This document shows, one piece after another, positions 26,409 through 62,083 of a DNA stretch of 64,000 nt (the first letter of the stretch is position 1; each line of letters begins with the position of its first letter). Where the stretch lies: NCBI RefSeq assembly GCF_002943565.1, contig NZ_PJCH01000010.1:186001-250000 (forward strand), in the 5' to 3' direction. This stretch comes from Hyphococcus luteus (GTDB lineage Bacteria; Pseudomonadota; Alphaproteobacteria; Caulobacterales; Parvularculaceae). A model generated the notes under the pieces. The model was not told where the DNA came from. It saw only the letters and a list, made by a program, of their open reading frames with translations, and searched no databases. Both the position numbers and the translations under genes were made by a program.

Positions 26409-26484
26409 ACGGCGCTTTCGCGTCAGCACGCCGTGCAAGCGGGGCGGTCATGAAACAAAAATGAAGGAATGGTGAAACTTTTTT

Positions 26485-26512: not shown

Positions 26513-26598
26513 GTCATAAGGCTGAATTCGGGAAGCGGGAAAGTAGCGGTCCCGACGAAGCCTCTCATGCAGCAAGCATCGTCGGGAGGGCGACCATC

Positions 26599-31520: not shown

Positions 31521-31706
31521 GACGATTGAAGACATGATTTTGCCGCAATAACCGAGCTAAGAATATATAAACACTGAGATGTTTGCCTAGGTGTCGCCGG
31601 CGGGCAACATCAGCCGTAATGGGAGTTGCCAGATTGCGCGCAAGAGCTTCTAATATTCTGCTATCAAGTGTTTCAATCGGCCTGGCGTTCTCTTCTGGCA
31701 AACGAG

Positions 31707-33351: not shown

Positions 33352-33562
33352 TGGCCGCTTCCGTGAAGCGCTGGATCCGTACTTGTTTCGTGTTCTGAGT
33401 TGCATGGACACAACGCGATCGCGATTCGCGAAATTATTAACAAACTCTGCGGCAAATATTTTCTTTCGTTCGTCTCACTTTATGGAAGGCGGATTCAGGG
33501 CGATGGCGCCTAAGGGGATCGGGGGCCTTCAGTGATTGAACCATTGGAGAGACGAAAACATC

Positions 33563-36241: not shown

Positions 36242-36279
36242 CGGCGATCCCTGCATTAAGAGGGCGGTTCAGATACGGA

Positions 36280-38874
36280 GTGCGTATCTGGATCGCTCAA
36301 ACATTTTCAACCGTATCAATTTTGGCGAAGATCGTGGTTTCCTTATTCCGAGGTCTCATTGGGGTCGTATTTGCGCTGGCCAATGCGGGCGCCTCAATGG
36401 CTGAGCCCCATAAGTTATCTCTTGATGACATGATGAAGGTGGAAGGTTTGGGTAGGGCGGCCAGCGATCCAACAGGACATTGGTTTGTTTACGAACGCTT
36501 GCGCCCCTACGGTCAATTGCCAGATTACACTTTCGGCGCCTATGCGTTTAGGAAGTCCGGTCATCAACTTTGGCGATATGATTTAGACAAAGGGGGTGAT
36601 GCCGCACTTTTACCCGGTTTGGATCAGGAATTTTATAATTATCTCCAGGGTTTCTCACCCTCCGGGCGCTTTTTGGCACTTTTTCAGTATCGCTTTGGCG
36701 CAATATCCATAGCCGCTTACGATATGATCCGAGAGAAGAGCGTGGTGTTTGATCAGACACCGGCGTTAAGCCGCAGCGGCGAGCATGATCCCGTTTGGAT
36801 ATCCAAGGATGAGCTCGTATTTGCAGCTCTGCCGAAAGGCGAGCAGCCGATATCAACAAGCGTGCGGGCATACACGGGTAAGGCGCTTACGCTCGCATGG
36901 GACAATGCGTGGCGAGGCAGGATTGCTACCGCGGACGAAGTGCGTTCGACTTTTGAAGATCAATCCAACGAACAGGAAGTTGGTGTCCTCGTGCGCGCCA
37001 ACGCACGCACCGGCAAGGTCAAAACTCTCGCCAGGGGGCTGTTTGCTGACCTCAGGGTGTCGCCGGACACGCGCTATTTGGCGGGCCTTGCTGTCTCAAA
37101 GCCGCGCTCGGCAGATTCCAGCAAACTGATTGTGGCTGACTCGCGCCGCTATCGTTTGACGGTTTTTGATTTGAATACCGGCGAGGCCCGGCCGGTAGCG
37201 CCCAAAATTGAATTCTTTCCTTATTCGATCGCCTGGGCGCCCGACAGCGAGCGTGTCGCCGCCTTTGGTTGGGCGTCGAGTGAAGGGCCGCGCAGTGGCG
37301 GATTTTATGTGATAGATGTAAAAAATGGCGCAGCGACCCGGTATGACCATAAGGGCCTCGACCTGGTTTCCGAACGGGAGCGCGGCTGGCTGCAGCGCCC
37401 GGAACGCACCGCATTTCTTGGAAACAATCTCCTCGTATTCGCACGTCGAATTCCAGAAAATGAGAGGCAAGATCCGCGCTTCACTTTTCAAAATACATGG
37501 CCAACCAATCTTTCGAAGCCGGACTGGTATCTCTTGCGCCCTGACGGTACGTCGGAAAACCTCTCAAAGGACCTCCCTGGAATATCAGGTATTCCTGTCG
37601 GTGCAGGGGACGGGCATGTCACTGTGTGGGCGGAGAATGGAGTCTACCGTTTTTATGAAAACGGCAGTCGTCTATTGCTGACGCCAGAAATACCCGGCCG
37701 CTTCCGGTTTGTTTCTGCGGACAGCTTTACAAGCAGGAGCGGTTTGATCCGTCCCGAATTTGAAGAAAAAGCGTTGTTTACCGTAAACAACGCCGGGTCA
37801 AAAAAGACCGTGATGGTTGATCTGCGAAATGGCCATGAAGGCGATGTTGTGATTGTCGACGCTCCATCAGCGGATGCGGCGCCGATGGCGGGTAGTCTTG
37901 CCGCAGGCGCTGTTCTATTTGATGTTGAAGAGGGCTCGGTTTCACGTCTCTTGGTTGCAAGAGCTGAGGATCAAAGGCGGCCGCATACTATCGCCAGTGT
38001 AAATACTCATCTTGCCGAGGTTGATCTGGGCGCCTGGAAAACGGTCTCATATGAGATTGACGATCCGCAGGGCATTCTTCCCTCGCACGTTGTTGAAAGC
38101 TGCGTTTTGCTGCCGCCGGGATACGATGGCGAGGTCTTACCGGCAATCGTGAATGTTTATCCGGGAGTGGAGCCGAGCTGTACAAGCGAGCCTCCAAAGA
38201 TCTCCTATCCTGATCCCTATTCGCCTTACTTATGGGCCGGCAAGGGATACGCCTACGCGCGCCTTGCAACACCGAGACAGTTGATACGCACCAATGACGG
38301 CCCGATAGCCGGCTTGGATGAGGTAATTGAGGCGGGCGCGAATGCACTTGTAAAAGCAGGAATCACCGCCCCAGAGCGCATGGTGCTAGATGGATCGAGT
38401 CAGGGTGGCGTGTCTGCACTGTATGTGGCTGCTCACTCCAATCGATTTAAGGGGGTTATTGCGAGGAATAGCTGGGCGGATTTTTTTAGTCACTATTTTG
38501 GCGCTCAGGGCATCGCTAGGTACGAATATGGAGAGGAGTATTTTAACACGAGTGCTCTTCGGTATGACTCGATCAGCGGGTCCGATTTCGGGATCGGGCG
38601 ACAGCCATTCGAAGACCCGGAAGTCTACTATAAAAATAGTCCGGTCTTTCTTGCGCCGCAGATCGACATGCCTGTTCTGCTTATTCATTCAGATATGGAT
38701 TTCTTCGATATTTCCCAATTCGATGAAATGTTCGGGGCATTGAAGCGCTCTGGAAAAGATGTGCGGTACGTTCGTTATTGGGGTGAAGGCCATTTACTCT
38801 CAAGCCCAGCGAATATTCGTGATATGTGGGAACGAACAGACGCCTTTTTGAAGGATAACGGCGTCACTCCCTAG
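36280..38874 (+). CDS. S9-family (prolyl oligopeptidase-like) peptidase, module 2
   Basis: An 864-residue exported serine peptidase. A GTG start gives a long signal-like N-terminus ending LFRGLIGVVFALANAGASMA. After a beta-propeller region the hydrolase domain has Ser707 in GSSQGG, Asp807 in HSDMDFF and His838 in GEGHLL, a complete catalytic triad. It is more distant from AtxE2 than the module 1 enzyme and looks more like a general S9 peptidase, so isopeptidase activity is an inference from its position 38 bases after the receptor gene. GC content looks lower than average. Confidence 0.82.
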   Translation: MRIWIAQTFSTVSILAKIVVSLFRGLIGVVFALANAGASMAEPHKLSLDDMMKVEGLGRAASDPTGHWFVYERLRPYGQLPDYTFGAYAFRKSGHQLWRYDLDKGGDAALLPGLDQEFYNYLQGFSPSGRFLALFQYRFGAISIAAYDMIREKSVVFDQTPALSRSGEHDPVWISKDELVFAALPKGEQPISTSVRAYTGKALTLAWDNAWRGRIATADEVRSTFEDQSNEQEVGVLVRANARTGKVKTLARGLFADLRVSPDTRYLAGLAVSKPRSADSSKLIVADSRRYRLTVFDLNTGEARPVAPKIEFFPYSIAWAPDSERVAAFGWASSEGPRSGGFYVIDVKNGAATRYDHKGLDLVSERERGWLQRPERTAFLGNNLLVFARRIPENERQDPRFTFQNTWPTNLSKPDWYLLRPDGTSENLSKDLPGISGIPVGAGDGHVTVWAENGVYRFYENGSRLLLTPEIPGRFRFVSADSFTSRSGLIRPEFEEKALFTVNNAGSKKTVMVDLRNGHEGDVVIVDAPSADAAPMAGSLAAGAVLFDVEEGSVSRLLVARAEDQRRPHTIASVNTHLAEVDLGAWKTVSYEIDDPQGILPSHVVESCVLLPPGYDGEVLPAIVNVYPGVEPSCTSEPPKISYPDPYSPYLWAGKGYAYARLATPRQLIRTNDGPIAGLDEVIEAGANALVKAGITAPERMVLDGSSQGGVSALYVAAHSNRFKGVIARNSWADFFSHYFGAQGIARYEYGEEYFNTSALRYDSISGSDFGIGRQPFEDPEVYYKNSPVFLAPQIDMPVLLIHSDMDFFDISQFDEMFGALKRSGKDVRYVRYWGEGHLLSSPANIRDMWERTDAFLKDNGVTP

Positions 38875-39904
38875 CAATATTATGGATTATTTATCTTCAA
38901 TTGATGCTGGTGCGGATGGTCTCCATCTGGCTGAGTAAGGCTCGATTTTATATTTTCCGATGCAACTTGGTCGAAGTTTTCTCGCGCGCTACTGCGCTCA
39001 TCCTTACAAAGTTTCCATAGGGCGACGCTTTTGAATTTTCGACCTCGGAAGGTCCGTTATTCTTGAGGTCGAGCACTATACGCGGGAATTCTTTCAAGCA
39101 GCCAGATAAATTCGTGGGCGGGATAATTAGTATGGTCGTCACCGACTGCGATCCAGATGCGGATCGATTGTCACTGATCGCTGGTAAGGCCATATATTCA
39201 AATAGATATACATCTACATGCTTGTATGTTCTTTGATGGATGATACCGGCTAAGTTATGTTTTCAATTCTTTATTATTGCTTAGGGGGAGCTTTCGGACG
39301 TTATCTTTGCGGTATGCGATTCACGTGCCGTCGACCGATGCGCCAGCCTTCGTGTTCGAGCAGCTAGAGAATGTGGCAATGGCGACGGCGGTCGAACTTT
39401 GAGGCTCGATGGATGATCGTTTATGAAGCGACATTTGACGGCTTCGCTTTCTCATCCAGCGCCAAGCTTCTTGAATTCAGATCCGGCGATGCAGAAAGCC
39501 TACAACGCGAAAAACCCCGTAATTTCCGAGCCCAAAAGGCTATTTATGGGAAATTTCTGAGAAAAAATATAGTATAGAGAAGTATTGATTGAGCATAATT
39601 TTTGGAATACATCTCTATCGGAAGGTGTAATTGTGCGCCGCGCGACCGGCTCTTGAAAAGACGGTGATATAGAGCGGCGCGAAAGCATCGGGCTTGGGTG
39701 CGACTATCAGCGGAAACTACTTTGCCCGGCGGTTGCCCCCGCGAGCATTCTTACTGGTGAGCGATTTTATGAGCATTTTCAGTGGGTCGGCTGAAGGCGA
39801 TTTGGTAATTGTATTCACGCGGCAAATGAATGTCCGGTTTAATAGATGTTTCAAGCTGATCACCTTAGTGCGCAGCGGTTTATTGTTTCGCGAGCGTTTT
39901 GCAG
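38875..39904. other. AT-rich gap between modules 2 and 3, no convincing gene
   Basis: About 1 kb. It holds the right copy of the 32-bp repeat (39235-39266). Short frames at 38948-39193 (minus) and 39371-39577 (plus) have no Shine-Dalgarno or familiar motif. No sigma factor is found in front of the next fecR-like gene, and no LGKA-type lasso leader was seen on either strand. Confidence 0.5.
39235..39266 (+). repeat. 32-bp direct repeat, right copy
   Basis: Matches 24325-24356 with three mismatches over 32 bases, in the same orientation, 14.9 kb apart. Possible boundary of an acquired segment or a shared regulatory site. Confidence 0.7.
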
Positions 39905-40966
39905 ATGACCCGTGAGGTTGAATATTTCCAGGACGGCAAGACGCTGAGCGAAGAGGAGCGCGCCGCGATCGAATGGCATATGCAGCTGCTTCGCGGCGAC
40001 GCGTCAGCACATCTCGAGAAAGAATTCGAGGCCTGGCTCGAGGCGTCTCCTGAAAATACGAAAGTCTACGAAGCGCTTGTACGCCTCTGGGACAAGGTCG
40101 AAACGGTTGCGGACGGAGAGCTGAAACGCGCCGCGCCGGCGCCGGACGGCGCCGACCGGGAACGCGCTCCGGCGCCGGCGCGCGTGAGGCCGTTCGGACG
40201 GACCTGGCGCACAATGGGGGGCGCCATGGCGCTGGTTTTGCTGGTCATGCTGTTCGTGCAGCTGCCGTTCAATGGCGCGACATACGAAACCGCACTCGGC
40301 GAACAGCGCGAGTTTGAGCTTGCGGACGGATCCGTGCTCACCCTGAACACCGCCTCTTCGGCTGAAGTACGGTTGAGAAAAGGGGTGCGGCTCGTGCGAC
40401 TTCTTGACGGACAGGCGAGCTTCTCCGTCGCGCACGATGAAGGCCGGCCGTTCATCGTTTTTGCTGCGGACAGCGCCGTGATGGCGGTCGGCACCGAATT
40501 CGACGTTTTCAAATCCGGCGATGAAGTCAGGGTGACGCTGATTGAAGGCGCCGTTGATGTCGCCGCCGGCCTGTCGGAAAGGCGGGCGGTGCGCGACCTC
40601 CCGGCGAAAGAGCGAAGCCCCGATCTCAAGGTCGCGGAGCTTGTCCCGGGCGATCAGATTTTCATTGACGCCGGAGACGGCTCCATGTCGCCGGCGGCGA
40701 AAGCCGATATCGACCGTCTCATGGCGTGGCGCGAAGGCAAGGTCAGTTTCCGGAACACGCCCCTGAAGGAAGCGGTCGCAGAGATAAACCGGTATTCGGC
40801 GGTGAAAATTCGCCTCGAGGGCGAAGAACTCGGCGAATTGCTGGTGAGCGGCACATTTGGGATTCACAACGCCGACAGTTTCACGAGCGCTGTTGAAACC
40901 CTGTTCGGGCTCGACAGCCGCCGGCAGGGACGTTCGATCGTGCTGACGCGCAAGGAAGCCGCCTGA
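39905..40966 (+). CDS. FecR-type signal transducer without adjacent sigma factor, module 3
   Basis: A 353-residue FecR-like protein. N-terminal domain: LSEEERAAIEWHMQLLRGDASAHLEKEFEAWLEASPENTKVYEAL; one membrane span GGAMALVLLVMLFVQLPF; periplasmic FecR domain ELADGSVLTLNTASSAEVRLRKGVRLVRL, ASFSVAHDEGRPFIV, AVGTEFDVFKSGD; C-terminal STN-like domain FRNTPLKEAVAEINRYSAVKIRL ending RRQGRSIVLTRKEAA. The ATG at 39905 is preferred over a TTG six bases earlier. Unlike modules 1 and 2, no sigma gene lies upstream in about 1 kb, so it must signal to a distant sigma factor or has lost its partner. Confidence 0.9.
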   Translation: MTREVEYFQDGKTLSEEERAAIEWHMQLLRGDASAHLEKEFEAWLEASPENTKVYEALVRLWDKVETVADGELKRAAPAPDGADRERAPAPARVRPFGRTWRTMGGAMALVLLVMLFVQLPFNGATYETALGEQREFELADGSVLTLNTASSAEVRLRKGVRLVRLLDGQASFSVAHDEGRPFIVFAADSAVMAVGTEFDVFKSGDEVRVTLIEGAVDVAAGLSERRAVRDLPAKERSPDLKVAELVPGDQIFIDAGDGSMSPAAKADIDRLMAWREGKVSFRNTPLKEAVAEINRYSAVKIRLEGEELGELLVSGTFGIHNADSFTSAVETLFGLDSRRQGRSIVLTRKEAA

Positions 40967-41247: not shown

Positions 41248-43887
41248 ATGCGTGTTTTATCTGCGCCTGGCGGACGGGCCTTTTGGGCGTGTCTTGCGGG
41301 AGCGCTGCTATGGACGCAGGCGCATCCGGCGCGCGCAGCCGCCGGGGCCGGTGAAGGCGCGCCCGACCGGGCGATTGTATTTTATATTCCTCCGTCCGGC
41401 CTTGACGCCGCGCTCGAAGCCTTTGCGGAACAGACGGGCGCGGAAATCATCTACGCCGACCGGGATATCGCCGGTAAGACAAGCCCCGGCGTCGCGGGGA
41501 TTCTCGGCGAAACGCAAGCGCTCGACATTCTGATTGCGGGAACAGGCCTCGAATTCGTCAAAAACGAATATGGCGTCATCATCGTCAGGCGCGTTTCCGA
41601 ACCTGCGCAGGATCGGGCGGCGGCGCCCGCAGCCGACACGTCGCCCGAGGCCGGCATGCGGGAAATCGATGAGCGCTCGCCAGTGGATGAGGTCGTCGCC
41701 ATCGGGACGAATATTCGCGGCGTGCGAAATCCTGCATCGCCCGTTCACATTCATCGCCGCGAAACCATCGAACGCTCGGGCGCTGCATCGGTGCAGGACT
41801 TCGTTCGGCTGCTGCCCCAGAATCTGAATTTCAGCGATACGACGGCGGCCGGCTTCGCCGGTCCGCCATCGGGTTTTGGCGGCGCCGGCGCCGCGATAGA
41901 CATGCGCGGGCTTGGCGAAGGCGCAACATTGACGCTCGTGAACGGCCGGCGCGTCGCGCCTGGCGGCGAGGGCGCAGGTTTCGTGGACATCTCGTTGCTG
42001 CCCCTCTCGGCGATTGAAAGAATCGAGATGGTGACCGACGGCGCGTCGGCGATTTACGGCGCGGACGCCGTGGCGGGCGTTGCTAATTTCGAGCTTGTCG
42101 ACAGGATAGAGGGCGCGCAAACCGATCTCGCCTTCGGGTCCGTCACCGAAGGCGGCCTGCGCCAGCTCCGGGCGAGCCAGATGGCCGGAACCAAGTGGAG
42201 CGGCGGCAATATCTTTGCAGGCTATGAATTCCTTGGCTCGACGAGACTGGATTCGCAGGATCGGAAGATTTCCGCTGGCGCTGCGGATCCGACCGATCTG
42301 TCGCCCAAACGCGAACGTCACAGCGTTTTCGCCGGCGCGAGCGCGGCGCTTAGCCCAGATCTTGATGTCGAGATCTTCGGCCTATACTCGGATCGCGAGG
42401 TCAGCTTTCGACTTTCCGACAACCTGTTCGGCGCGGGCGAGGAAACCACGTCGGCCCGGCTCCTTTTCGGGAATGTCTCGGGAACCTATCATCTGGGGCG
42501 CGGCTGGGCGGCGAGTTTTTCGGCGAATTATTCCCGCAACGAGACCGCCGGCGCCCGTCTTGCTGCGAGCGCGCCTCCTTTCGATGTGGACGCCCGTTCG
42601 GCGATGACGGTCGCGGAGCTAATGGCCGAAGGACCGGTCTTCGCCGCGCCAGGCGGCGATGTCCGTCTCGCGGCGGGTTTCCAGTTTCGGTCCGAGCGTT
42701 TCCTGCGCTCTACCATGAGCGTGACGCAGGAGCGGACCAGCCGGGACCGTCGCGCCTATGCGGGCTTTGCCGAATTATATGTTCCCGTTTTCGGCGAGCC
42801 GAATGCGCGATCCGGTCTTGAAGAGCTGACATTGACCGCTGCGGCGCGGATCGAACGTTTCAGTGATTTCGGCGAAACAGTGAATCCAAAAGTCGGTCTG
42901 CGTTATGCGCCGTCCGAAGAAATCCGGTTTCGCGGGACATTCGGAACATCCTTCCAGGCGCCGGGCCTTTATGATTTGGGCCGCAATCGGACCGTTCAAC
43001 CCTTGCCGGGCGCGCTTTTTGTCCCCGATCCGGATGCGCTCGGGGCGCCGCCGGACGTTCTAGTGTTGTCCGGGGGCAATCCCGATCTTGATCCTGAAAA
43101 TGCGACGACCTGGACCGCCGGCGCCGATTTCGGATCGTTCGGCGCGCCGGGATTTGCAGCCGCGCTCACCTATTACGACATAAAATTCAAGAACCGCATC
43201 GGAACGCCGGGCGTCGCGCTCAATCAGGCGCTTGCGACACCCGAGGCCTTCGGCGGCGCGGTAACGATCGATCCTGCATTGGAGCAAGTGCAGCCATATT
43301 ATGTAAGCAGCGAATTTAGCAATCCCTTCGGGATCTCGGCGGACGCAATCGGGGCGATTGTCGATTATGGTCTGGCGAACACGGCTTCGACGAAGGTGAG
43401 CGGCGTCGATCTCAAACTTGGCTACGAAGCCGATATCGGCGCCGGCGCGCTAAGCGCCGGCCTCGATGCGAGCTATATGTTCGATTACAATTTCCAGGCG
43501 AATAGCGCCCAGGATCGTGTCTCCCTGCTCGACACTGTTTTCCATCCCCCCGATTTGCGTTTTCGGGCCAATGCAGGTTTTGGCAGCGGCGCCTTTAGCG
43601 CGGCTTTCTATGTGAATTATGTCGATTCCTATGAGAGCTTCGAGACGGGTGTTCGAGAACAGGTCGCATCATGGACGACCGTCGATCTGGGCCTGACCTA
43701 TGACGGCGGAGACGCCGCATCCAGCCAAAGGCGGAAGGGTCTTTCCGTCAATCTCTACGTGGCGAATCTGTTCGACGAGCCGCCGCCTTTTGTGGATCTG
43801 GGTCTCGGTCTCGGCTTGAGTTTCGACGGCGTCAACGCCAATGCAACCGGCCGCTTTATTTCGATCGGCGTTTCGAAATCCTGGTGA
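41248..43887 (+). CDS. STN-containing TonB-dependent receptor, module 3
   Basis: An 879-residue receptor. Signal peptide: RAFWACLAGALLWTQAHPARA. STN domain: FYIPPSGLDAALEAFAEQTGAEIIYADRDI. Plug: VVAIGTNIRGVRNPASPVHI, LLPQNLNFSD, IDMRGLGEGATLTLVNGRR, ERIEMVTDGASAIYGADAVAG. The barrel ends RFISIGVSKSW. AAGGGGC precedes the ATG. It converges with the lasso operon 1 genes on the other strand, with 134 bases between its stop and the precursor stop, so it is the likely receptor for that lasso peptide. No isopeptidase is attached. Confidence 0.92.
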   Translation: MRVLSAPGGRAFWACLAGALLWTQAHPARAAAGAGEGAPDRAIVFYIPPSGLDAALEAFAEQTGAEIIYADRDIAGKTSPGVAGILGETQALDILIAGTGLEFVKNEYGVIIVRRVSEPAQDRAAAPAADTSPEAGMREIDERSPVDEVVAIGTNIRGVRNPASPVHIHRRETIERSGAASVQDFVRLLPQNLNFSDTTAAGFAGPPSGFGGAGAAIDMRGLGEGATLTLVNGRRVAPGGEGAGFVDISLLPLSAIERIEMVTDGASAIYGADAVAGVANFELVDRIEGAQTDLAFGSVTEGGLRQLRASQMAGTKWSGGNIFAGYEFLGSTRLDSQDRKISAGAADPTDLSPKRERHSVFAGASAALSPDLDVEIFGLYSDREVSFRLSDNLFGAGEETTSARLLFGNVSGTYHLGRGWAASFSANYSRNETAGARLAASAPPFDVDARSAMTVAELMAEGPVFAAPGGDVRLAAGFQFRSERFLRSTMSVTQERTSRDRRAYAGFAELYVPVFGEPNARSGLEELTLTAAARIERFSDFGETVNPKVGLRYAPSEEIRFRGTFGTSFQAPGLYDLGRNRTVQPLPGALFVPDPDALGAPPDVLVLSGGNPDLDPENATTWTAGADFGSFGAPGFAAALTYYDIKFKNRIGTPGVALNQALATPEAFGGAVTIDPALEQVQPYYVSSEFSNPFGISADAIGAIVDYGLANTASTKVSGVDLKLGYEADIGAGALSAGLDASYMFDYNFQANSAQDRVSLLDTVFHPPDLRFRANAGFGSGAFSAAFYVNYVDSYESFETGVREQVASWTTVDLGLTYDGGDAASSQRRKGLSVNLYVANLFDEPPPFVDLGLGLGLSFDGVNANATGRFISIGVSKSW

Positions 43888-43969
43888 GCCGGGAGGGGTC
43901 GCAAGGCCCCGCGCCTCATTCTCGATCGCGCGTTCCACTGCGCGAAATTGCCGAATGAAATAATTCCGG

Positions 43970-44002
43970 AAAAACGCCGGCGCGCCATGAGCGGCGCGCC
44001 GG
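43970..44002 (-). terminator. rho-independent terminator of lasso operon 1
   Basis: On the minus strand CCGGCGCGCC, a 6-base loop and GGCGCGCCGG form a perfect 10-bp stem (arms 43993-44002 and 43977-43986), followed by CG and TTTTT. It sits 18 bases after the precursor stop codon, which supports the small precursor gene as the last gene of the operon. Confidence 0.8.
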
Positions 44003-44020
44003 ACTGTTCCGATTGGGGGG

Positions 44021-44104
44021 CTAGATGAACCGCCCGACCCAATCGATTAGCACCGGCACGCCGATGCCCTTGGTCGCTCTTGTCGCTTTGCCAAGATAGA
44101 TCAT
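44021..44104 (-). CDS. lasso peptide precursor A1 (27 aa)
   Basis: A gene too short for ordinary callers. GAGGAG lies six bases before the ATG. The product is a leader MIYLGKATRATK and a predicted core GIGVPVLIDWVGRFI. The leader has the LGKA motif of astexin-type precursors and the required Thr at the second-last leader position, and the core begins with Gly. Asp9 is correctly placed to form a 9-residue Gly1-Asp9 macrolactam, leaving a 6-residue tail WVGRFI. There is no cysteine (class II). The core is unusually hydrophobic with one Arg. A longer in-frame start at 44203 exists, but the Shine-Dalgarno favours the short form. The gene follows C1 by 213 bases and is closed by a terminator. Confidence 0.88.
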   Translation of the reverse strand: MIYLGKATRATKGIGVPVLIDWVGRFI

Positions 44105-44317
44105 ACAAGACTCCTCATTTGCGTCTTCTTTCCTTGGGGGGGAACATCCCCTCAAGAACGATACAGGGTTACGGATGAACGCCGGACCACTATATGGCCC
44201 CAATATTATCCGGAACGAAGGGCGAGTTGAAACGTCCGGCCTAAAACAGCCGGCGCATCAGTTGTTTGTGCCCGCATACTGACTGGTTTTCTGCGGTCCC
44301 GCAGACTAAAAGGCCGT

Positions 44318-46162
44318 TCAGGCTGCGCTCATGATATTCCGATGCGCGCGCCGTTCGCTCCATCCCCGCGCCCAGTATTCGACGCCGGTCAAATTCAGAA
44401 GGTCGTAAGCATGCCGCGCGACGAACGGCGCATCCGGTTTGAGCGCGCATTCGAGACTTTTGCGATCGACAATGCGCGCCTCCGATAGCGCGCCGTCTAT
44501 CAGGGCGCTGCGGATGAAGTCGAGATTGTTGCGGCAGAGTTCTTCGTAATATGCGGCCGGCGTCGACTTTCCGAAACGGCGAACGACGTCGCCAGGGAGC
44601 ATGTCCCGAAACGCCATGCGCGCCAGCGCACGGTCGACGCCGCCATGCGTCATGATCCAGGCGGGGACGCGAAGACAGGCCTCAATGATGGGCTGTTGCA
44701 GAAAAGCGTGCACGCGCTCGGCTGAGTAGCCCGTGTCCCAGTGATCGTAATAGTCGACGGCGAAAAAGGCGCAGGAGAGAATCTGAAGATATTTGGCCTT
44801 GAGATCGCCGTCGCGGGCGGCGAGGAGAGGGTGCAGCATGGATTTGGCGTCGCAGTCGGCAAGAAAATCGCGATTGACGAATGCCGGAGCGCTAGACCCG
44901 TAGAGTCTTTCGAGAACATATGCGCCGCACGGCGCCGGGCGGATCAGCTCCCTTGCCGTGTCCGCGAGCGATTCGGCGAAGGAGACGCGGCCATATCGCG
45001 ATGCGTGCAGAACGGCTTTAAAGAGGCCGGCGCCGGCGCCGTTTCGGCGCGCATAGTCGAGGGCTGAAAAATTAAAAGCAGGCTGGCAGAAGACATTGTC
45101 GCCGCCAATGCCGGTGAACAGGACGTCCGCGCCGTGATCGGCGGCGATGCGGGACGGGTTAGCGGCGAGCCCGATGCAGTCGAACATGCCCGGCGGGCTG
45201 GCGAGCCTGATCGATGAGGAAAGCCGGCCGAGATCGGACTGCGGCTTCAGTTCGATTTCGAGATGCGATGCATCACATGCCTGTGCTGTCTGCCGGCTGT
45301 AAAAACGCTCCTCGCCGCGAAGCGAGGAGGGAGTGTAGTAATTGAGCGCAATTAGGTTCGGGCGCGGCCGGGCTTTGGCGAGGCAGGCAAGGGCGATCGA
45401 CGAGTCGAGGCCGCCGAGAGCGACGGCGGCGCTGTCATGACCGCGCGTCAGCGCACTGATCGTTTTTACGACAGTGTTTTTCAGGATATCCGCAGCGGTG
45501 TTCACATCCGTTGCAACGACGTCCTCTGCAACTGCAAACGGGTCCCAGATGAAGCGCCGCGAAAACCCGCCGGGATGAAACGTCCAGCATTCGCCCGGCA
45601 GGACTTCGCTGACTTCATTTAGCCCGGTTTCGGTTTTCTGCAGCTGCGGCGTCAGAAAGTTCGCCGCCAAATAACGCCAGTTGACGGAAAAGGGGAGGAA
45701 ATCGAGATCGGCGGCGTCCTGCATGTCTGAAAAGAAGAGGCGCAATTGCCGGCAATAGGCTGCGAAACAGGGCATGGCCCCGGTCGGATCGCGCACGATA
45801 TGAAACGCGCGCCCATCGTTATCGCGCAGAAAGGCGGCGTAGCGACCCCAATAGCCATCGGCAAGAGCCTGCCCTCTGCTGGCGATCAGCTTGCGGGCCT
45901 CGTGCGCGCAAAGCGCGCCGTCGACCGGCGAATAATCGTTCCGATGAAGCCGCCCGAGGACGGCGCCGCCATTGTCAGGCAAAAGGAGCGTTCCCGTTCG
46001 TGCCGGCAGCGCGCCGCTGTCGAACACCGAGACGCCGTCGGCGCGCCAGGCATGGCGCCAGTCCCGCGCCGGAGATATCTTAAAGAGGCGTTCGAGCGCG
46101 CGCGCCTCGCTTGCCGCGGTTTCATCGAGTGGATCCCAGACTGCTGCGAAATAGCGATACAT
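44318..46162 (-). CDS. lasso cyclase C1 (asparagine synthetase-like)
   Basis: A 614-residue ATP-dependent enzyme expected to activate the Asp9 side chain of precursor A1 as an acyl-adenylate and close the ring. The N-terminal half resembles the glutaminase domain of AsnB but lacks Cys2 (it begins MYRYF) and includes the typical FHIVRDPTGAMPCF. The C-terminal domain has the PP-loop LGGLDSS (about 249-255), ALNYYTPSSLRGEERFYSRQ and later LFTGIGGDNVFCQ. GGGGAAA precedes the ATG, 22 bases after the B1 stop. It is a paralogue of C2 (54525-56351). Confidence 0.92.
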   Translation of the reverse strand: MYRYFAAVWDPLDETAASEARALERLFKISPARDWRHAWRADGVSVFDSGALPARTGTLLLPDNGGAVLGRLHRNDYSPVDGALCAHEARKLIASRGQALADGYWGRYAAFLRDNDGRAFHIVRDPTGAMPCFAAYCRQLRLFFSDMQDAADLDFLPFSVNWRYLAANFLTPQLQKTETGLNEVSEVLPGECWTFHPGGFSRRFIWDPFAVAEDVVATDVNTAADILKNTVVKTISALTRGHDSAAVALGGLDSSIALACLAKARPRPNLIALNYYTPSSLRGEERFYSRQTAQACDASHLEIELKPQSDLGRLSSSIRLASPPGMFDCIGLAANPSRIAADHGADVLFTGIGGDNVFCQPAFNFSALDYARRNGAGAGLFKAVLHASRYGRVSFAESLADTARELIRPAPCGAYVLERLYGSSAPAFVNRDFLADCDAKSMLHPLLAARDGDLKAKYLQILSCAFFAVDYYDHWDTGYSAERVHAFLQQPIIEACLRVPAWIMTHGGVDRALARMAFRDMLPGDVVRRFGKSTPAAYYEELCRNNLDFIRSALIDGALSEARIVDRKSLECALKPDAPFVARHAYDLLNLTGVEYWARGWSERRAHRNIMSAA

Positions 46163-46184
46163 GGAGGTTTCCCCGATGAGCGTG

Positions 46185-46949
46185 TTAAACGGTCAGAATT
46201 CTCGTATGGGGCGCGACTGCATAGACGAAATCGTCGAGCACGAGGTCTTCATGCTGCAGCCAGGCATGGGCGCCGAATTCATCGAGGCGAACCCCAATGC
46301 AGAACTCCGTCTTGAAACCGTGCGCTGCAAGAAACGTCGCCAGCGCAAGCGAATTGATGAGGCACGCATCGGTTCCGCGTGCGGCGAGCGGCTTTAAGAG
46401 CCTGAACATCTCGATCAGCTCTTTAAGGCGCGTTAGTCCGCCATTTCCGGTGGGCGTGTTCGCGAGCCGTTGCTTGCAGCGTTTGAGGTAATTGACAGAA
46501 TGTTCGAGGCCGAACAGGCGCAGCCGGATATTTGCGGAAGCGTAAGCGCCAAGAAAAGCTGCGACATGGGCGGCTTTCAGTTTCGGACGCTCATCGGGCA
46601 GCAAGCCTGGCGCTTCGCGCAGGTCAGGTGGCCCGTCGATCGGCTGGAACGGCTTTCCGACGCTGGCATTCGCAGTGAGTATCTTCTCCTCAATCAGCCC
46701 GGCGATTTCCGGGTCCTCGATGAGGGCTTTCCGATGCTCCGCTTCGGGCGCAGCGTCGTCCGCAGTATCCGGCGCTTCGGTTGCGAGCAGCGCACGAACG
46801 CGGCGAGAGGCTTCTGTGTTCAGACCAAAGTAACGGTCTTTCTTTACGTCGAGAAAGACCAGCGAGCCGCCAACCATGCAGGTGAAAATATGCGGGCTCA
46901 GATAGAGCGCTGGTCGGGAAGAGCAGCTTTTGCTTTGCCGCGCATTCAT
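46185..46949 (-). CDS. lasso leader-binding protease B1 (RRE + transglutaminase-like)
   Basis: A 254-residue fusion. The N-terminal ~80 residues (LYLSPHIFTCMVGGSLVFLDVKKDRYFGLN) are a PqqD-like RRE domain that binds the leader peptide. The C-terminal domain is the McjB-type cysteine protease with Cys196 (TDACLINSLAL), His228 (FGAHAWLQ) and Asp239 or 240 (LVLDD). It should cut the precursor after the Thr-Lys end of the leader. The two domains are separate proteins (B1 and B2) in many actinobacteria and fused in proteobacteria. The same catalytic spacing occurs in B2 at 53735. C1 follows after 22 bases. Confidence 0.92.
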   Translation of the reverse strand: MNARQSKSCSSRPALYLSPHIFTCMVGGSLVFLDVKKDRYFGLNTEASRRVRALLATEAPDTADDAAPEAEHRKALIEDPEIAGLIEEKILTANASVGKPFQPIDGPPDLREAPGLLPDERPKLKAAHVAAFLGAYASANIRLRLFGLEHSVNYLKRCKQRLANTPTGNGGLTRLKELIEMFRLLKPLAARGTDACLINSLALATFLAAHGFKTEFCIGVRLDEFGAHAWLQHEDLVLDDFVYAVAPHTRILTV

Positions 46950-47204
46950 GTCTCTTGCCTGGAACTATTTGCATTCATCAACGTTCCAAATAGGCAATGC
47001 CACGCGGCGCAGGCTTGCACTATATATACAATATAGAGCCGGAATATCGGCGCGCGCTTAAGCATTTGCGCGGCGCGAAGCATTCGCGGGCGCTGATTTG
47101 TCTTTCGAAAAAACGCCGACTTCGGCGGACCCGCGCCGTTCAGGCGCCGATAAAATGCAGGGCGTGGCAAACGGTTTGCGCGCCTGTCTTTGCCCGCCGC
47201 GAGT
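46950..47204. promoter_or_regulatory. region between regulator and B1 with an AT-rich inverted repeat
   Basis: The 255-base gap contains CTATAT-ATACA-ATATAG (47020-47036), a 17-base inverted repeat of 6-bp arms lying about 70 bases upstream of B1. It is a plausible operator for the GntR-type regulator encoded next door and likely includes the operon 1 promoter. Confidence 0.4.
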
Positions 47205-47891
47205 TTACCGCGCCGTGCGAACGCGCGATCTGGCGAGGCTGCGGAAAAGGCCCGGCAGCCACTCCCGCAACTCCAGGAAATACGCTGAAAGAGCCGTTCC
47301 GACCGCCGGGAAGTCCAGACTCGAATAGGCTTCAAAAACCCTTAGGAGAGCCTTGTTCGGATCGCCAAAGGCTTCATAGGTTTTCCACCGCGCGTGGAGC
47401 GTTCGGTCATTCAGGTTCGAAACGAGCCGGATCAGGTCTTCGTTTCCCGATTGCCGCGCAAGATGATGAAAGAGATCGCTGGCGAGGCCGGCGACTGCAT
47501 CGGGGCGGTCGCGCACGGCGTCCTCAAACTCGCGTTTGAAGTCCGGAGGTTTGAGCGGGCCGGGACCGGCTGTGCGTTCCGCTGCTCTTGAGGCGGACCA
47601 GCCCAGCAACAATTCCAGGAGATCGTAAAGATCGGAAAGTTCGGTTTGAGAAAGCGGCTTTGCGAAGAATCCCGCATTGGGAATATCCTGGACGAATCGC
47701 TCGGCGGTGAGCCGCGCCAGCGCTTCTCGCACCGGCGTGGCGCTGACAAAGAGCTGATCGGCCAGTTTTTCAATAACGATGCGTCGTCCTACGGGAAATT
47801 CATAGCGGATTAGCCGGGATTTAATCCGTTCATAAACGCCATTGGGGGAGTTTTCAGCGGGGATTCTTTTATGGGGGAGGGTGTGCGACAT
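47205..47891 (-). CDS. GntR-family regulator of lasso operon 1
   Basis: About 228 residues from the ATG at 47891, which has AGGA nine bases upstream; the open frame extends to 47945. The winged helix is VYERIKSRLIRYEFPVGRRIVIEKLADQLFVSATPVREALARLTAERFVQDI, a textbook GntR N-domain. The C-terminal part is helical (FCD-like: LASDLFHHLARQSGNEDLIRLVSNLNDRTLHARW). GntR proteins with FCD domains bind small acids or peptides-derived ligands; the effector here is unknown. It is paralogous to the regulator at 51154 and transcribed in the opposite direction from it. Its position suggests control of lasso operon 1. Confidence 0.88.
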   Translation of the reverse strand: MSHTLPHKRIPAENSPNGVYERIKSRLIRYEFPVGRRIVIEKLADQLFVSATPVREALARLTAERFVQDIPNAGFFAKPLSQTELSDLYDLLELLLGWSASRAAERTAGPGPLKPPDFKREFEDAVRDRPDAVAGLASDLFHHLARQSGNEDLIRLVSNLNDRTLHARWKTYEAFGDPNKALLRVFEAYSSLDFPAVGTALSAYFLELREWLPGLFRSLARSRVRTAR

Positions 47892-48293
47892 TGCGCCTGT
47901 CCTATGCATCAGTTTCGCCTTGTGTGAGGTTCGCCGCCGCGCCATACGCGGGACCGGAAAGCGGCATCTTTAATGAAACAGACTGCCCCTTTTCCAGTAT
48001 TCTTCACCAATTGTCCTTGTCCGGTATGTTTTGGCGCAATAATGCGGCCTTCAATTTGATCAGGCGGTTAGATCCGGTCGGAAGCGCTATTGTCTTGTGG
48101 AAATGGGGACCATTGACGGCCGGAGCTGTCCGGAAATTAGGACACAGTGCGGCGGCAGTCCGTCGGCGACAAAGTCCGCCCCCAAAAAAGCTGCAGAAAT
48201 GCTTAGATTGTTCAATTGCGCCGGGACCGCAATTGTTGCGGCAAGCAACAAAAGACGGCGCGCAAAAAACCAGATTGGAAAACAAGAAGGCGG
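47892..48293. other. intergenic stretch, no gene seen
   Basis: About 400 bases. TGTCC-GGAAATTA-GGACA near 48130-48150 is a short inverted repeat. I see no supported reading frame. Confidence 0.45.
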
Positions 48294-50804: not shown

Positions 50805-51153
50805 CGGCGCCCCCTTGAATGCATAAAACAAAAGTATAGTGTACTAATATATGTTAAATATATTTATTCATTATTATGTCACGGTCGTTGACTTTGAAAT
50901 TTACTAGAACCTATATGGATGATTGGAAATAAACATTCATATAACCGGGTTCGACTTGTTTCGGTATGATTGACGGCGTCGCCGGGCGCCATGGCCGGAC
51001 TCTGAAAAAGCTCCTTTGGCGGCGCCTGCGCCCCCAGTGCGTCGCGCGTCATGAGGGTGACGCAAGCGCATAAACCGGTGCGTCAGTCCGTGAGGCGGAG
51101 AACGCTGCCGGCGGCGGATTTGCGCCGGCGCCGGGCGCGAGAGGTAGTGAGCG
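50805..51153. promoter_or_regulatory. upstream region of lasso operon 2 with a GntR-like site
   Basis: About 350 bases, AT-rich to 50940. TAGTGTACTA (50837-50846) has TAGT/ACTA half-sites around GT, the kind of GT-N-AC core used by FCD-type GntR regulators, and AAATATATT (50856-50864) follows. It is the likely control region of operon 2 and its regulator. Confidence 0.35.
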
Positions 51154-51798
51154 GTGAGCAGCAACAGCATTTATGATGGGGTGAAATCACATGTTCTCTC
51201 TTTGGCTTCTCCGGCAGAGACCAGAATCCTGGTGGAGCCGCTGGCGACAAAGCTGTTTGTCAGCACCACGCCGGTGCGCGAAGCGCTGATCCGGCTTGCG
51301 GCTGAACGCATCGTCAAGGAAGTGCCGAAGGCCGGCTTTTACACGCGGGCGCTAACGGAAGTGGAGACCGGCGGGCTCTACGAGATGCAGGCCCTGATTG
51401 TTGATTGGTCCCTCAATTCGCTTGTGAGCGCAAAGGACGTCGCGGGAATGACGTTGCAGGACGGAGCGCGCGGCAAGGGCGCCCATCAGCCGTCAGCGCC
51501 GGAGGATCCAGGCGCGGCCATTGAAGAGGTGATGGTGCGCGTCGTCCGCAAAACCGGAAATGAGGACGCAGCGCATATCACCGCCAATATTAATGACCGC
51601 ACCAGAATGGCCCGCAAGAAAGACGCCGAATTTTTCCCTGCTGCGCGTGAGGCGATGATGCGAGCGCTGCAAGCGCATGGCGCCGGCGAGACCGTCAGCG
51701 CTCGCGATGAATTCGCGGCCTATTTCAGCGGTGTCAGACTGCGCCTGCCGGAGCTGCTCCGCATGCTAAGGAGCAGCGTTCATAAATCGCCAGCATGA
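51154..51798 (+). CDS. GntR-family regulator of lasso operon 2
   Basis: A 214-residue GntR protein with a GTG start (GAGAGG nearby). Winged helix: IYDGVKSHVLSLASPAETRILVEPLATKLFVSTTPVREALIRLAAERIVKEVPKAG. The C-terminal half is helical (GNEDAAHITANINDRTRMARK). It parallels the regulator at 47205-47891 in order and in phrases such as VSxTPVREALxRLxAER and NxNDRT, so the two are paralogues. It overlaps the ABC transporter start by four bases, so it is the first gene of operon 2. Confidence 0.88.
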   Translation: MSSNSIYDGVKSHVLSLASPAETRILVEPLATKLFVSTTPVREALIRLAAERIVKEVPKAGFYTRALTEVETGGLYEMQALIVDWSLNSLVSAKDVAGMTLQDGARGKGAHQPSAPEDPGAAIEEVMVRVVRKTGNEDAAHITANINDRTRMARKKDAEFFPAAREAMMRALQAHGAGETVSARDEFAAYFSGVRLRLPELLRMLRSSVHKSPA

Positions 51799-53603
51799 CG
51801 CGGCGGTCCGCCGCGCCGCTATGGGCGTTGAAACAAGCGTCGGATTTCGCGTGGCGCGAGTCGGATGGCGCCGTCAAGATGCGCCTGGCGGCGACAATCG
51901 CGCTCGCCCTTTGCGGCGCGCTTCTCTCCGGCCTGTCGCCCGTGCTTTTGAAATACGCCGTTGATGGCCTGGAACCCTCCACGCCGACGGGAGACGGCGC
52001 AGGCAACGCGAGCGGCGCCCTGTTGCTCGTTCTCCTTTATGTCGCCGCTTTACTGGCGGCGCGCTTGCTGGCGGAATTGCGTGCGCGCCTGATCGGCGAG
52101 GCGGACCAGCGCCTGCAGCGCCGGCTCGCAGCGCGCCTCATATCGCATGTGATCGATCTTCCGCTTTCTTTTCACCTCCGACGCAGGACAGGAGCGCTCA
52201 CCCAGACTCTGGCGCAGGGACTTGCCGGTTATCGCGTGCTTATTCATCATTCGGCGCAGACAATCATTCCGGTTTTTGCTGAAACGCTCATCGTCGCGGG
52301 CGTCCTTGTTTCGCGGCTTCCGCCTGAATTCCTCATCATTCTCGCGGTTTCGCTCGCCGCCTATCTCGGCCAGTTCGCGCTCGCGGCCGCCCGCATCGTC
52401 GGGCCGGCGCGCGCGGCCGCCGCCAGTCAACTCGACATGTCCGCCGCCATGACCGACAGTCTCATAAACGCGGAAACCGTTAAATCCCTCGCCGCGGAAG
52501 AGCGCATCGCATCGCGCTTTGATCGCGTGCTCGCTGAAAATGAAGAGCGGTGGCGGCGGTTTTACAGGCGCAAATCCCGCTATGGCGGCCTCGCCGCCGG
52601 TGTTTTTGCCGCCTCCCTTGGCGCGTCCCTCGGGCTCGCCGCTTTTCGCGTCGGCCAGGATGTCATGAGCATCGGCGATTTCGTGATGATGAACGCCTAT
52701 ATGCTGCAGCTCATGCGGCCGGTCGAGATGCTGGGCGCCAGCTTCCGGGAAATCCTTCAGGCCGCGGCCAATCTTGAACGCATGATGGCTCTGGCGCGAG
52801 AGGCGCCGGAGCCGGATGTCTCTCCCGCCGCGCCCGGCGGGGCGGCGCGGCTACTGCCGGGCTGCAGGCTTGAGGTCGAGAAAGTTTCATTTTCCTATGG
52901 GGACGGCGCGCCGGTTGTGGACGATGTCAGCTTCACCGCAGAGCCCGGCCGCGTGCTCGCCCTTGTCGGGCCAAGCGGCGCCGGGAAGTCATCCCTCCTG
53001 CGGCTTTTGTTGCGATTCTATATGCCCCAGCGCGGCGATATCCGGCTTGGCGGACAGTCGATTGGCGCGCTGGGCCTGAAACAGCTCCGCCAGGCCGTCG
53101 CCGTCGTTCCCCAGGACATCGTTCTTTTCGACGACACCATCGCCTTCAATATCGCTCTTGCAAGACCTGGCGCGAGCCATGACGAGATCGAGGCGGCGGC
53201 GCGCGCCGCAGGCGTTCATGAGCGGATCGCCGCCATGCCGGACGGTTACGCAACGATTGTCGGCGAGCGCGGGCTCAAATTGTCAGGCGGCGAAAGGCAG
53301 CGTTTGTCGATTGCGCGGGCGCTTGTGAAAAGACCGAGACTCCTCGTTCTCGACGAGGCGACGTCATCGCTCGACGCGGTGACGGAAAAAATCGTTCGCC
53401 GCAGCCTCATGGCGGGCGCCGCTGAACGCACGACGCTTGTCGTGGCGCATAACCTCGCCATGGCCGCTGGCGCCGATGAAATTCTGGTCATGGCCAAGGG
53501 GCGCATTGTGGAGCGCGGTTCGCATCGCGATCTCATCCGCCGCAAAGGTCTTTATGCGCGGTTGTGGCGCGAACAGATGCAATCGGGCGATGAGAAGGCG
53601 TGA
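51795..53603 (+). CDS. ABC exporter D of lasso operon 2
   Basis: A 602-residue half-transporter, membrane domain fused to an ATPase, of the McjD type that exports the mature lasso peptide and can give self-immunity. Membrane helices include LAATIALALCGALLSGLSPVLLKYAV, ALLLVLLYVAALLAARLLAELR, TIIPVFAETLIVAGVLVSRL and FLIILAVSLAAYLGQFALAA. The ATPase has Walker A GPSGAGKS (about 392-399), signature LSGGERQR and Walker B LLVLDEATSSLD. It overlaps the regulator gene by four bases and precedes B2. Operon 1 has no such gene, so this one may serve both peptides (inference). Confidence 0.92.
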   Translation: MTRRSAAPLWALKQASDFAWRESDGAVKMRLAATIALALCGALLSGLSPVLLKYAVDGLEPSTPTGDGAGNASGALLLVLLYVAALLAARLLAELRARLIGEADQRLQRRLAARLISHVIDLPLSFHLRRRTGALTQTLAQGLAGYRVLIHHSAQTIIPVFAETLIVAGVLVSRLPPEFLIILAVSLAAYLGQFALAAARIVGPARAAAASQLDMSAAMTDSLINAETVKSLAAEERIASRFDRVLAENEERWRRFYRRKSRYGGLAAGVFAASLGASLGLAAFRVGQDVMSIGDFVMMNAYMLQLMRPVEMLGASFREILQAAANLERMMALAREAPEPDVSPAAPGGAARLLPGCRLEVEKVSFSYGDGAPVVDDVSFTAEPGRVLALVGPSGAGKSSLLRLLLRFYMPQRGDIRLGGQSIGALGLKQLRQAVAVVPQDIVLFDDTIAFNIALARPGASHDEIEAAARAAGVHERIAAMPDGYATIVGERGLKLSGGERQRLSIARALVKRPRLLVLDEATSSLDAVTEKIVRRSLMAGAAERTTLVVAHNLAMAAGADEILVMAKGRIVERGSHRDLIRRKGLYARLWREQMQSGDEKA

Positions 53604-53734: not shown

Positions 53735-54508
53735 GTGACGGAAGCGACAGGCAAAATGCGAGCCGAAAAGCAGTCCGGCGCCCCGGAGCTTTTTCTGACG
53801 CCGCAGACATTCACAGCGATGACGGACGGCGTGCTTGTCTTCCTCGACTTAAAGAAAGACAGATATTCCTGTCTTGAACCCCGCTGCTCCGCCGCGGTGG
53901 CGGGCCTCTTGGGACTGAACGCTCCACGTGAAGAAGGCGCCGACGAAACGGGCGCTTCAGGCGAAACGCCTGCCGTCGATGAACTCGTGCGGGACCTTCT
54001 GGAACGAGGTCTTGTGACGCGCGACGCCCGGAAGGGAAAGCGCGCCGAAATGATTTCCCATACGGCAATGCTTCGAGAGACCCCCGGCTATCTGCCAGGA
54101 GAGGGACCCTATATCCAGCTCCGCCATGTCGCAGCTTTTTTCCGCGCGCTCCTTGTCACGAGCCTGCTTCTCGGATTTTCCGATATATCGCATATCGCCG
54201 CGCGCATTCGCCGGCGCAGGCGGCGCGAAAAGCCCGCCCGGCGCTGTGACGCGCATGACGAGCGGATCAGAAAACTCATCGAGATTTTTCGGGTGTTGCG
54301 TCCTCTAGGCGTCGCCGTCAAAGACCGTTGCCTGTTCAATTCGCTGTTGCTGATCGAGTTTCTGGCGGCGTTCGGCATTTTTCCAGAATGGCGGTTCGGC
54401 GTGCGCGTTCACGGGTTTCACGCCCATTGCTGGGTGCAGGAAGGAGAGTTGATATGCGACGACCAGATCCAGAACCTGGCCGCCAGCGCGCCGATCATGT
54501 CAGTATGA
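53735..54508 (+). CDS. lasso leader-binding protease B2 (RRE + transglutaminase-like)
   Basis: A 257-residue fusion paralogous to B1. N-terminal RRE: LFLTPQTFTAMTDGVLVFLDLKKDRYSCL. Protease domain: Cys199 (KDRCLFNSLLL), His231 (GFHAHCWVQ) and Asp242 or 243 (LICDD); residue spacing from Cys to His and Asp is the same as in B1. The open frame begins with GTG at 53735; an ATG at 53756 (MRAEKQSGAP) is an alternative. It follows the ABC gene after 131 bases and is 16 bases ahead of C2. Confidence 0.9.
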   Translation: MTEATGKMRAEKQSGAPELFLTPQTFTAMTDGVLVFLDLKKDRYSCLEPRCSAAVAGLLGLNAPREEGADETGASGETPAVDELVRDLLERGLVTRDARKGKRAEMISHTAMLRETPGYLPGEGPYIQLRHVAAFFRALLVTSLLLGFSDISHIAARIRRRRRREKPARRCDAHDERIRKLIEIFRVLRPLGVAVKDRCLFNSLLLIEFLAAFGIFPEWRFGVRVHGFHAHCWVQEGELICDDQIQNLAASAPIMSV

Positions 54509-56542: not shown

Positions 56543-56629
56543 ATGATTGATCTTGGCAAAGTCTCCGAAGAAACCAAAGGTTTCGACGAAGGCCTGAGCG
56601 ACCATCAGGGCGGGCGCGAGCAGCAGTAA
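56543..56629 (+). CDS. lasso peptide precursor A2 (28 aa)
   Basis: The gene starts with ATG after a strong GAGGAGG Shine-Dalgarno. The product is leader MIDLGKVSEETK and predicted core GFDEGLSDHQGGREQQ. The leader has LGK, and Thr is at the second-last position, followed by Gly1. Asp8 can close an 8-residue ring, leaving the polar tail HQGGREQQ. The in-frame sequence upstream has no other start codon before a stop at 56498-56500, so the leader can only be 12 residues in this frame. The tail is unusual: two Gln at the end and no bulky plug residue, so how the thread is held is unclear (Arg or His are candidates). A terminator follows. Confidence 0.9.
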   Translation: MIDLGKVSEETKGFDEGLSDHQGGREQQ

Positions 56630-56648: not shown

Positions 56649-56682
56649 CAGCGCGCAGCCGAACCGCTGCGCGCTGTTTATT
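56649..56682 (+). terminator. rho-independent terminator of lasso operon 2
   Basis: CAGCGCGCAGC (56649-56659), loop CGAACC, GCTGCGCGCTG (56666-56676), then TTTATT. It is a perfect 11-bp stem 19 bases after the A2 stop and overlaps the end of the convergent S9 gene. Confidence 0.78.
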
Positions 56683-58918: not shown

Positions 58919-58935
58919 GCCGGTCCCGACCTGGC

Positions 58936-61692: not shown

Positions 61693-62083
61693 GGATATCC
61701 CCTCGTTCTTTGCGCGTTTGTTTTTTTTGCACGCGCTCTTGAATGACTTGCAGCCGGTCTTCACGCCGGCTTCGTGTCATGCGCGTCTGGAGAGAGACAG
61801 GCGCGCCGGGCGAACGGGACAATAATTATTGGGGCGTCATTTGCGAGAGCGGTGCGGGTTGCGCTGCTGCGACTCGTCAGAAACGTCGAGCCTTTTGCCC
61901 GGCGGTTCCGCGCCGGGCTCGATGGTGGGCGCTCTTCGGGCAGGGCGGAAGGGCAAATGCCGTATCTGCCGGGCAATTTATGGGCGGCAAACCTGCTTTT
62001 GCATAGAACAAGAATTCATATTAAGAATAGAAACAAATACTTTGAAGCCTTCATAATAGCTGTTCCATTCCTGAGGGGGGCAA
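61693..62083. other. divergent promoter region, no gene seen
   Basis: About 390 bases between the receptor and the GAF-domain gene. I saw no supported reading frame. It must carry both promoters. Confidence 0.45.

Follow-up and report, generated by a model that had tools for sequence, protein, structure and literature searches.

The DNA analysed here, a stretch of 64,000 nucleotides from Hyphococcus luteus (the window), carries an operon, operon 1, that produces, with a probability of about 0.8 and by the steps proposed below, a lasso peptide of 15 residues whose precursor has a naturally minimal leader. The pathway as such is known; new are the leader of 12 residues, the position of the precursor gene behind the cyclase gene and the gene length of less than 90 nt, and these features recur in two families. 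Since some relatives show the same build, operon 1 is a real variant of the known pathway. The evidence consists of the genes and their domains, a Shine-Dalgarno sequence, a terminator and the recurrence in relatives.

Operon 1 and its precursor gene

The initial annotation, made from the letters alone, had proposed a lasso operon with a 27-residue precursor, and the open reading frame, the Shine-Dalgarno sequence, the domains and the recurrence in relatives support it. The order GntR-B1-C1-precursor was confirmed with Pfam and NCBIfam, but the GntR start placed at 47891 is an internal ATG of a frame that starts at 47945 (Table 1). The terminator expected behind the precursor gene is indeed there, with a stem running from 44002 to 43977; it has the longest stem of the 11 terminator-like sites in 43850-48100, compared with 5.9 sites per shuffle. 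A sigma-70-type promoter was not found in the same region. The palindrome between the GntR and B1 genes, whose 17-nt center occurs only once in the window, is a possible operator of operon 1.

Table 1. Features of operon 1, operon 2 and their surroundings in the window
Feature	Position	Strand	Basis or remark
GntR-family regulator of operon 1	47205-47945	-	Pfam PF00392
Palindrome GCACTATAT-N5-ATATAGAGC, GntR/B1 intergenic	47017-47039		candidate operator
B1, fused RRE (about residues 15-90) and leader peptidase (C196-H228-D240)	46185-46949	-	
C1, lasso cyclase, asparagine-synthetase-like, 614 aa	44318-46162	-	Pfam PF00733
Shine-Dalgarno sequence of A1, GAGGAG, 6-nt spacer TCTTGT before ATG	44111-44116	-	read directly
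A1, lasso precursor, 27 aa, 84 nt including stop, MIYLGKATRATKGIGVPVLIDWVGRFI; leader MIYLGKATRATK (12 residues), core GIGVPVLIDWVGRFI (15 residues; Gly1, predicted ring to Asp9)	44021-44104	-	ORF read, six-frame scan
Intrinsic terminator, 11-pair stem (10 G-C), 4-nt loop, then CGTTTTT	43977-44002	-	terminator scan
TonB-dependent receptor, convergent with operon 1	41248-43887	+	STN match below Pfam cut-off
FecR-type anti-sigma regulator	39899-40966	+	Pfam
S9a peptidase, 864 aa	36280-38874	+	Pfam
S9b, AtxE2-type lasso isopeptidase	29259-31520	+	NF033523, 580 bits (cut-off 400)
Two complete sigma-FecR-TonB-S9 units	24673-31520 and 31626-38874	+	same strand as receptor 41248-43887 and its FecR
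GntR of operon 2	51154-51798	+	Pfam
ABC exporter of operon 2	51795-53603	+	Pfam
B2	53735-54508	+	NF033537, 58.9 bits (cut-off 33)
C2, lasso cyclase	54525-56351	+	C tree; NCBIfam scores below cut-offs
A2, lasso precursor, 28 aa, 87 nt; leader MIDLGKVSEETK (12 residues), core GFDEGLSDHQGGREQQ	56543-56629	+	
S9c peptidase, candidate isopeptidase of operon 2	56678-58939	-	AtxE2 model, 96 bits (cut-off 400)
TonB-dependent receptor of operon 2	58936-61764	-	

The peptidase part of B1 matched Transglut_core3 and lasso_biosyn_B2 (NF033537; 55.5 bits, cut-off 33), and its N-terminus gave a lasso PqqD/RRE match at residues 19-65 (24.9 bits, E 1.7e-5) that lies under the model cut-off of 70. The Cys-His pair is invariant in the 46 B proteins compared and D240 in the six compared. 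An AF2 model of B1 (mean pLDDT 90.6) was searched with Foldseek, and the top four PDB fold matches were chains of TbiB1 and TfuB1, which are lasso RREs solved with leaders; the match is modest, because the best E was 6e-3 (probability 1.00) and none reached 0.001. C1 was recognized as Asn_synthase by Pfam (67.5 bits, cut-off 21) and falls among the C proteins of other lasso loci in a tree, but its score with the NCBIfam model lass_lactam_cya (NF033535) was 44.2 bits, far below the cut-off of 525.

A lasso cluster is recognized by a B protein with RRE and cysteine peptidase and by an asparagine-synthetase-like C protein, and operon 1 has both. A1 has the marks of a precursor, that is, Thr-2, a small residue 1 and Asp/Glu at 7-9; the Thr at the second-last leader position, Gly1 and Asp9 are as read in the initial annotation. 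The TonB-dependent receptor and FecR beside the operon are those of an isopeptidase-type cluster. GntR, TonB, sigma/anti-sigma and isopeptidase genes are described as the standard surroundings of such clusters, with a function called enigmatic (PMC9266682, in the part available). Operon 1 shares with the alphaproteobacterial astexin, benenodin-1 and sphingopyxin clusters covered there the GntR, the fused B, C, the TonB receptor, FecR and a nearby S9 peptidase, and its leader ends in LG-x5-T-x like those of the surveyed long-leader loci. In contrast to these clusters, where the precursor lies next to GntR, B1 and C1 intervene between the GntR gene at the head of operon 1 and A1, its last gene; the leader lacks an acidic half, and no isopeptidase gene adjoins. 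Lasso leaders are generally 20-40 residues long according to the available text of a 2026 review (PMC13352647), but A1 and A2 have 12 residues each. Operon 1 is mostly an ordinary isopeptidase-type alphaproteobacterial lasso cluster with two oddities, the 12-residue leader and the position of A1 after C1.

All six frames of the window were scanned for an ATG that has a Shine-Dalgarno sequence before it and L[GD]x3-6T.[GASCT] within the next 10-16 residues. There were exactly two matches, A1 and A2, whether or not D/E was required in the core. The same scan on 150 dinucleotide shuffles gave a mean of 0.047 matches, with a maximum of 2 in one shuffle, and on this count A1 as a chance open reading frame was rejected. 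A1 had been proposed in the initial annotation and A2 was spotted by eye, both before the precursor pattern was applied. In a comparison with precursor models, A1 had no match. A2 matched the benenodin-family precursor model at positions 11-36 of 43 with an E of 2.4e-6 (27.3 bits, cut-off 33). A1 (84 nt), A2 and both precursors of the related locus L016 (87 nt each) are shorter than 90 nt and therefore under the gene-length floor of Prodigal, stated as 90 bp (PMC2848648, in the part available); two further precursors have exactly 90 nt. The start of the 12-residue leader is backed by the Shine-Dalgarno scan, by A2, whose frame contains no ATG, GTG or TTG from the preceding stop up to its own ATG, and by the same build in relatives.

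Unfamiliar cores are common among lasso peptides. The core of A1 had been described as strongly hydrophobic and as matching no familiar lasso peptide, and both descriptions held. Its GRAVY of 1.40 is the highest among the 63 precursors collected (median -0.61, next 0.56) and tops 56 of the 57 published cores compared, the exception being specialicin, a class I peptide (1.51; table of PMC12427821). The published set comprises 57 of the 62 cores in Table 1 of that paper; dropped were astexin-1, whose printed sequence contains a letter O, and four copies or near-copies (lariatin B, lariocidin B, moomysin and siamycin II). Kinship with a known lasso peptide was rejected: the best alignment score with these 57 cores was reached by 30% of 300 shuffles. 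No close homologue of the core was seen among the surveyed precursors either. Fuscanodin/fusilassin (core WYTAEWGLELIFVFPRFI, same table) is hydrophobic and ends in RFI like the core of A1, but has 18 residues and Trp1 and is outside the eight best-scoring alignments with A1. With its 15 residues, the core is inside the known range, since chaxapeptin has 15 and huascopeptin 13 residues (PMC12427821, as listed there). The predicted product (core minus water) has an [M+H]+ of 1622.9417, and that predicted for A2 has one of 1741.75. The short leader and the precursor after C, common to operon 2 and relatives and not singled out as unusual in the initial annotation, are more informative oddities than the unfamiliar core.

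Short leaders in related loci

A B profile, applied to the family at E 1e-15, matched 8 of its 62 genomes; at E 1e-25 it matched 37 of 398 genomes drawn from the order and 6 of 398 drawn from the phylum. The three draws overlap and include the genome of the window. Every place listed, the named locus L027 and the window together gave 53 loci with B or C, and this survey is a lower bound, because at most six candidates per genome were scored in the order and phylum draws and because the draws overlap. The precursor list has 69 rows, 63 distinct by locus and 57 distinct peptides; L017 is the exact reverse complement of L028. The precursor pattern demanded L/V-[G/D/A], T at -2 and D/E at core position 7-9, and these motifs are therefore not independent evidence in the survey. 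No precursor was found under the filter in 3 of 54 C loci (L094, L102 and L107); the unfiltered listing does give one for L094, with the same sequence as that of L093.

Leaders of 12-13 residues were found in at least 12 precursors in at least seven genomes of two families: A1, A2, two in L016, one in L018, two in L074, one each in L075 and L090, two in L017 and one in L020. Five of these genomes, the window's own included, belong to the genus of the window and two to another family (genus g31). All other surveyed leaders have 16-36 residues, among them those of three further lasso loci in the genome of the window, with 22, 26 and 27 residues (L025 and L026). Upstream alternatives to the start codon (ATG, GTG or TTG) are absent in 6 of the 12, including A2 and both L016 precursors, and a Shine-Dalgarno-like match of at least 4 nt precedes 11. 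The remaining one, the second precursor of L017 (leader MLIYLGKITEKTS, core GWGYTGVEPGVILPLY), has none and was dropped by the Shine-Dalgarno filter; it is counted in the 12 and left out of the 11 used for alignment and gene order. In the literature searched on short or minimal leaders, mostly without subscription papers, no natural lasso leader of fewer than 16 residues was recognized, and the peptide strings of these precursors had no match in a similarly bounded search.

In an alignment at the cut site, L-G stands at -9/-8 in every leader, long (40 of 40) or short (11 of 11), even though the pattern permitted L anywhere from -7 to -10. The long leaders have an acidic upstream stretch (mean net charge -4.8). 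The short leaders start directly with the conserved block; their net charge, from -1 to +3, is near neutral to basic, and 8 of the 11 have Lys or Arg at -7. By this alignment, the short leader is the conserved C-terminal block of the canonical alphaproteobacterial leader minus its acidic N-terminal half. In an AF2 model, residues -12 to -10 of McjA add a fourth strand to the RRE by pairing with its strand 3, and in the MccJ25 system product is still detectable when as many as 28 residues are removed from the N-terminus of the leader (both PMC11420955, in the part available). A natural leader that begins at -12 would therefore retain no more than the strand modelled on the RRE, the Thr-2 site and the cut site. 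The synthetase of microcin J25 works with about the last eight leader residues (Cheung et al. 2010, as cited in PMC11420955 and PMC11212047), but there the short form is an engineered, less efficient cut of a 37-residue leader, whereas in A1 it is the natural state.

Among the precursors that passed the filter, the gene lies after C in 9 of 11 with a short leader compared to 0 of 52 others (Fisher p 2e-9, which is too small because kin loci are taken as independent). Shortening and relocation are separable, since the short-leader genes of L018 and L017 sit before B as usual. On the C tree, a quick search with SH-aLRT support only, the short-leader label is clustered, as low a number of changes being reached by 3 of 500 shuffles. 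One group, with a support of 92 and so under the 95 mark, unites operon 1, operon 2 and L016; L074, L075 and L090 form another (100), L020 pairs with the long-leader locus L021 (99), and L017 and L018 are left unplaced. A single origin of the short leader is unsupported, as the tree needs five changes of state, at least four of them forced by starred branches. The RRE has a mean charge of -5.9 in nine B proteins of short-leader loci versus -2.2 in 32 of long-leader loci (Mann-Whitney p 0.0098, with L074, L075 and L090 being close kin). Short-leader exceptions are L020 (+1) and L017 (-2) and long-leader exceptions L111 (-9) and L096 (-8); the sequences do no more than suggest a more acidic RRE in short-leader B proteins.

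Some of these loci have features of their own. In L074, L075 and L090, the loci of the other family, B and C are on opposite strands with FecR between them, and the short-leader precursors lie behind C, as a tandem pair in L074. L020 encodes two precursors whose long cores contain Cys (GSLGTFVEVSVVSGTVCHPSFSVDGNGTCGCLE and GSIIPLFIEFDGDLTRICPPPFQFTLTIGGDFDCD, at about 9180-9330 and 11998-12145), one before B and the other after C. The short-leader precursor of L018 (8915, plus strand) lies between the ABC gene and B, and its core starts with Ala (ATGVQLLVEEETGQFYI).

Operon 2, receptors and S9 peptidases

Operon 2, in the order GntR-ABC-B2-C2-A2, shares both oddities of operon 1, since its leader has 12 residues and A2 is directly behind C2. 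S9c, its candidate isopeptidase, is 42% identical to the S9 peptidase beside L016. According to the available text of PMC9266682, rubrinodin was alone among the clusters characterized by 2022 in having an ABC gene together with an S9 peptidase. Operon 2, L016, L018 and L027 have the rubrinodin-like combination of ABC, S9 and TonB, the last three also with FecR; operon 1, unlike these, has no ABC gene. Upstream of the GntR gene of operon 2 is an AT-rich imperfect palindrome (50836-50874) that does not resemble the one in operon 1.

On the other side of operon 1, S9b matched the AtxE2 structure 5txc with an E of 7e-91, whereas S9a scored 27.6 bits with the AtxE2 model, far below the cut-off of 400. 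In a search of the lasso loci, relatives of S9a with 53-59% identity were found beside C or B genes in L024, L025, L080, L083, L087 and L089, and S9 peptidases of about 850 residues like S9a may perhaps be a second line of lasso isopeptidases. Operon 1 has no adjoining isopeptidase gene, nor is there one between A1 and the convergent receptor; S9a ends 5.1 kb from A1 and S9b is 12.5 kb away. A sigma gene was not found between S9a and FecR (7 ORFs tested, 0 Pfam matches), and the two complete units, each with a FecR of its own, were the only places where sigma genes were found. B genes other than B1 and B2 were not found in the window, and its first 25.5 kb gave no B or C match. Both complete sigma-FecR-TonB-S9 units could serve to take up and open either foreign lasso peptides or the product of operon 1.

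Proposed pathway, alternatives and meaning

In the proposed pathway, the RRE of B1 would take up the first leader residues (about -12 to -10) as an extra strand, Thr-2 would dock at the peptidase domain, and Cys196 would cut after Lys-1. C1 would then activate Asp9 with ATP and join it to the amine of Gly1, giving a product with an [M+H]+ of 1622.94. As the canonical leader minus its acidic half, the leader of A1 would keep only the parts for recognition and cutting. The product is probably exported, reimported via the neighbouring TonB receptor and opened by an S9 isopeptidase, as proposed for other such clusters. As for what sets this product apart, binding of a hydrophobic partner or of a membrane is our main candidate, at the level of a guess. 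For operon 1, the chemistry and the threading, the role of the palindrome as an operator, the export and uptake of the product and its biological role are all inferred. Counted against this reading are the open frame upstream of A1, the lack of a precursor-model match, the low score of C1, the lack of an adjoining isopeptidase, of a sigma gene among the ORFs tested between S9a and FecR and of a sigma-70-type promoter, and the inefficient processing of McjA with minimal leaders reported in the available part of PMC11212047.

The upstream frame is open for 51 codons and contains two TTG codons, 17 and 33 codons before the ATG, from which leaders of 29 or 45 residues would start; leaders of 16-36 residues are, after all, the rule in the other 52 precursors. 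We consider such a start very improbable, as neither TTG has a Shine-Dalgarno sequence but the ATG has GAGGAG at 6 nt, which would then have to be read as the codons Glu-Glu, and as A2 and both L016 precursors, with the same leader type, are without any upstream start. That A1 is a decayed duplicate, with B1 and C1 now acting on another substrate such as A2, would fit a precursor out of its usual place with half a leader missing, a core that has no close homologue among the surveyed precursors, and a leader that reads ATRA at -6 to -3, where VSEE is commonest in short leaders. Yet the Shine-Dalgarno sequence, terminator, L-G, Thr-2, Lys-1, Gly1 and Asp9 are all intact; Ala-6, Thr-5 and Ala-3 are each found in one or more other short leaders; and the same build, with different cores, is seen in operon 2 and L016, which fall into the C group of operon 1 (SH-aLRT 92). 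Decay is thus quite improbable.

It is also unlikely that the ring is closed without threading, to give a branched cyclic peptide of the same mass. Threading has no proof in sequence, and only six residues follow Asp9, but chaxapeptin, with 15 residues, is listed as a class II lasso peptide (Table 1 of PMC12427821), and Trp10, Arg13 and Phe14 would be candidates for bulky plugs. The synthesis of a lasso peptide from a naturally short leader remains our preferred reading. A wider and more doubtful proposal is that of "micro-leader" lasso pathways with more than one origin, in which the leader would have shrunk to the RRE strand and cut site and lost its acidic character, becoming neutral or basic, as the acidity of the RRE increased; the change in charge might let two micro-leader and three acidic-leader pathways coexist in one cell without cross-reaction, and the class might have been overlooked because many of its genes are at or under the floor of gene callers.

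To our knowledge, minimal lasso leaders are known only as engineered truncations. Operon 1 and its relatives offer a natural answer to the question of how little leader a lasso synthetase needs, and in a genome with both short- and long-leader pathways the discrimination of leaders by RREs can be tested directly. Because the precursor genes of 84-90 nt also lie after C, a search restricted to genes annotated between GntR and B would miss them, and in lasso clusters seemingly without a precursor the DNA behind the cyclase gene is worth rechecking.
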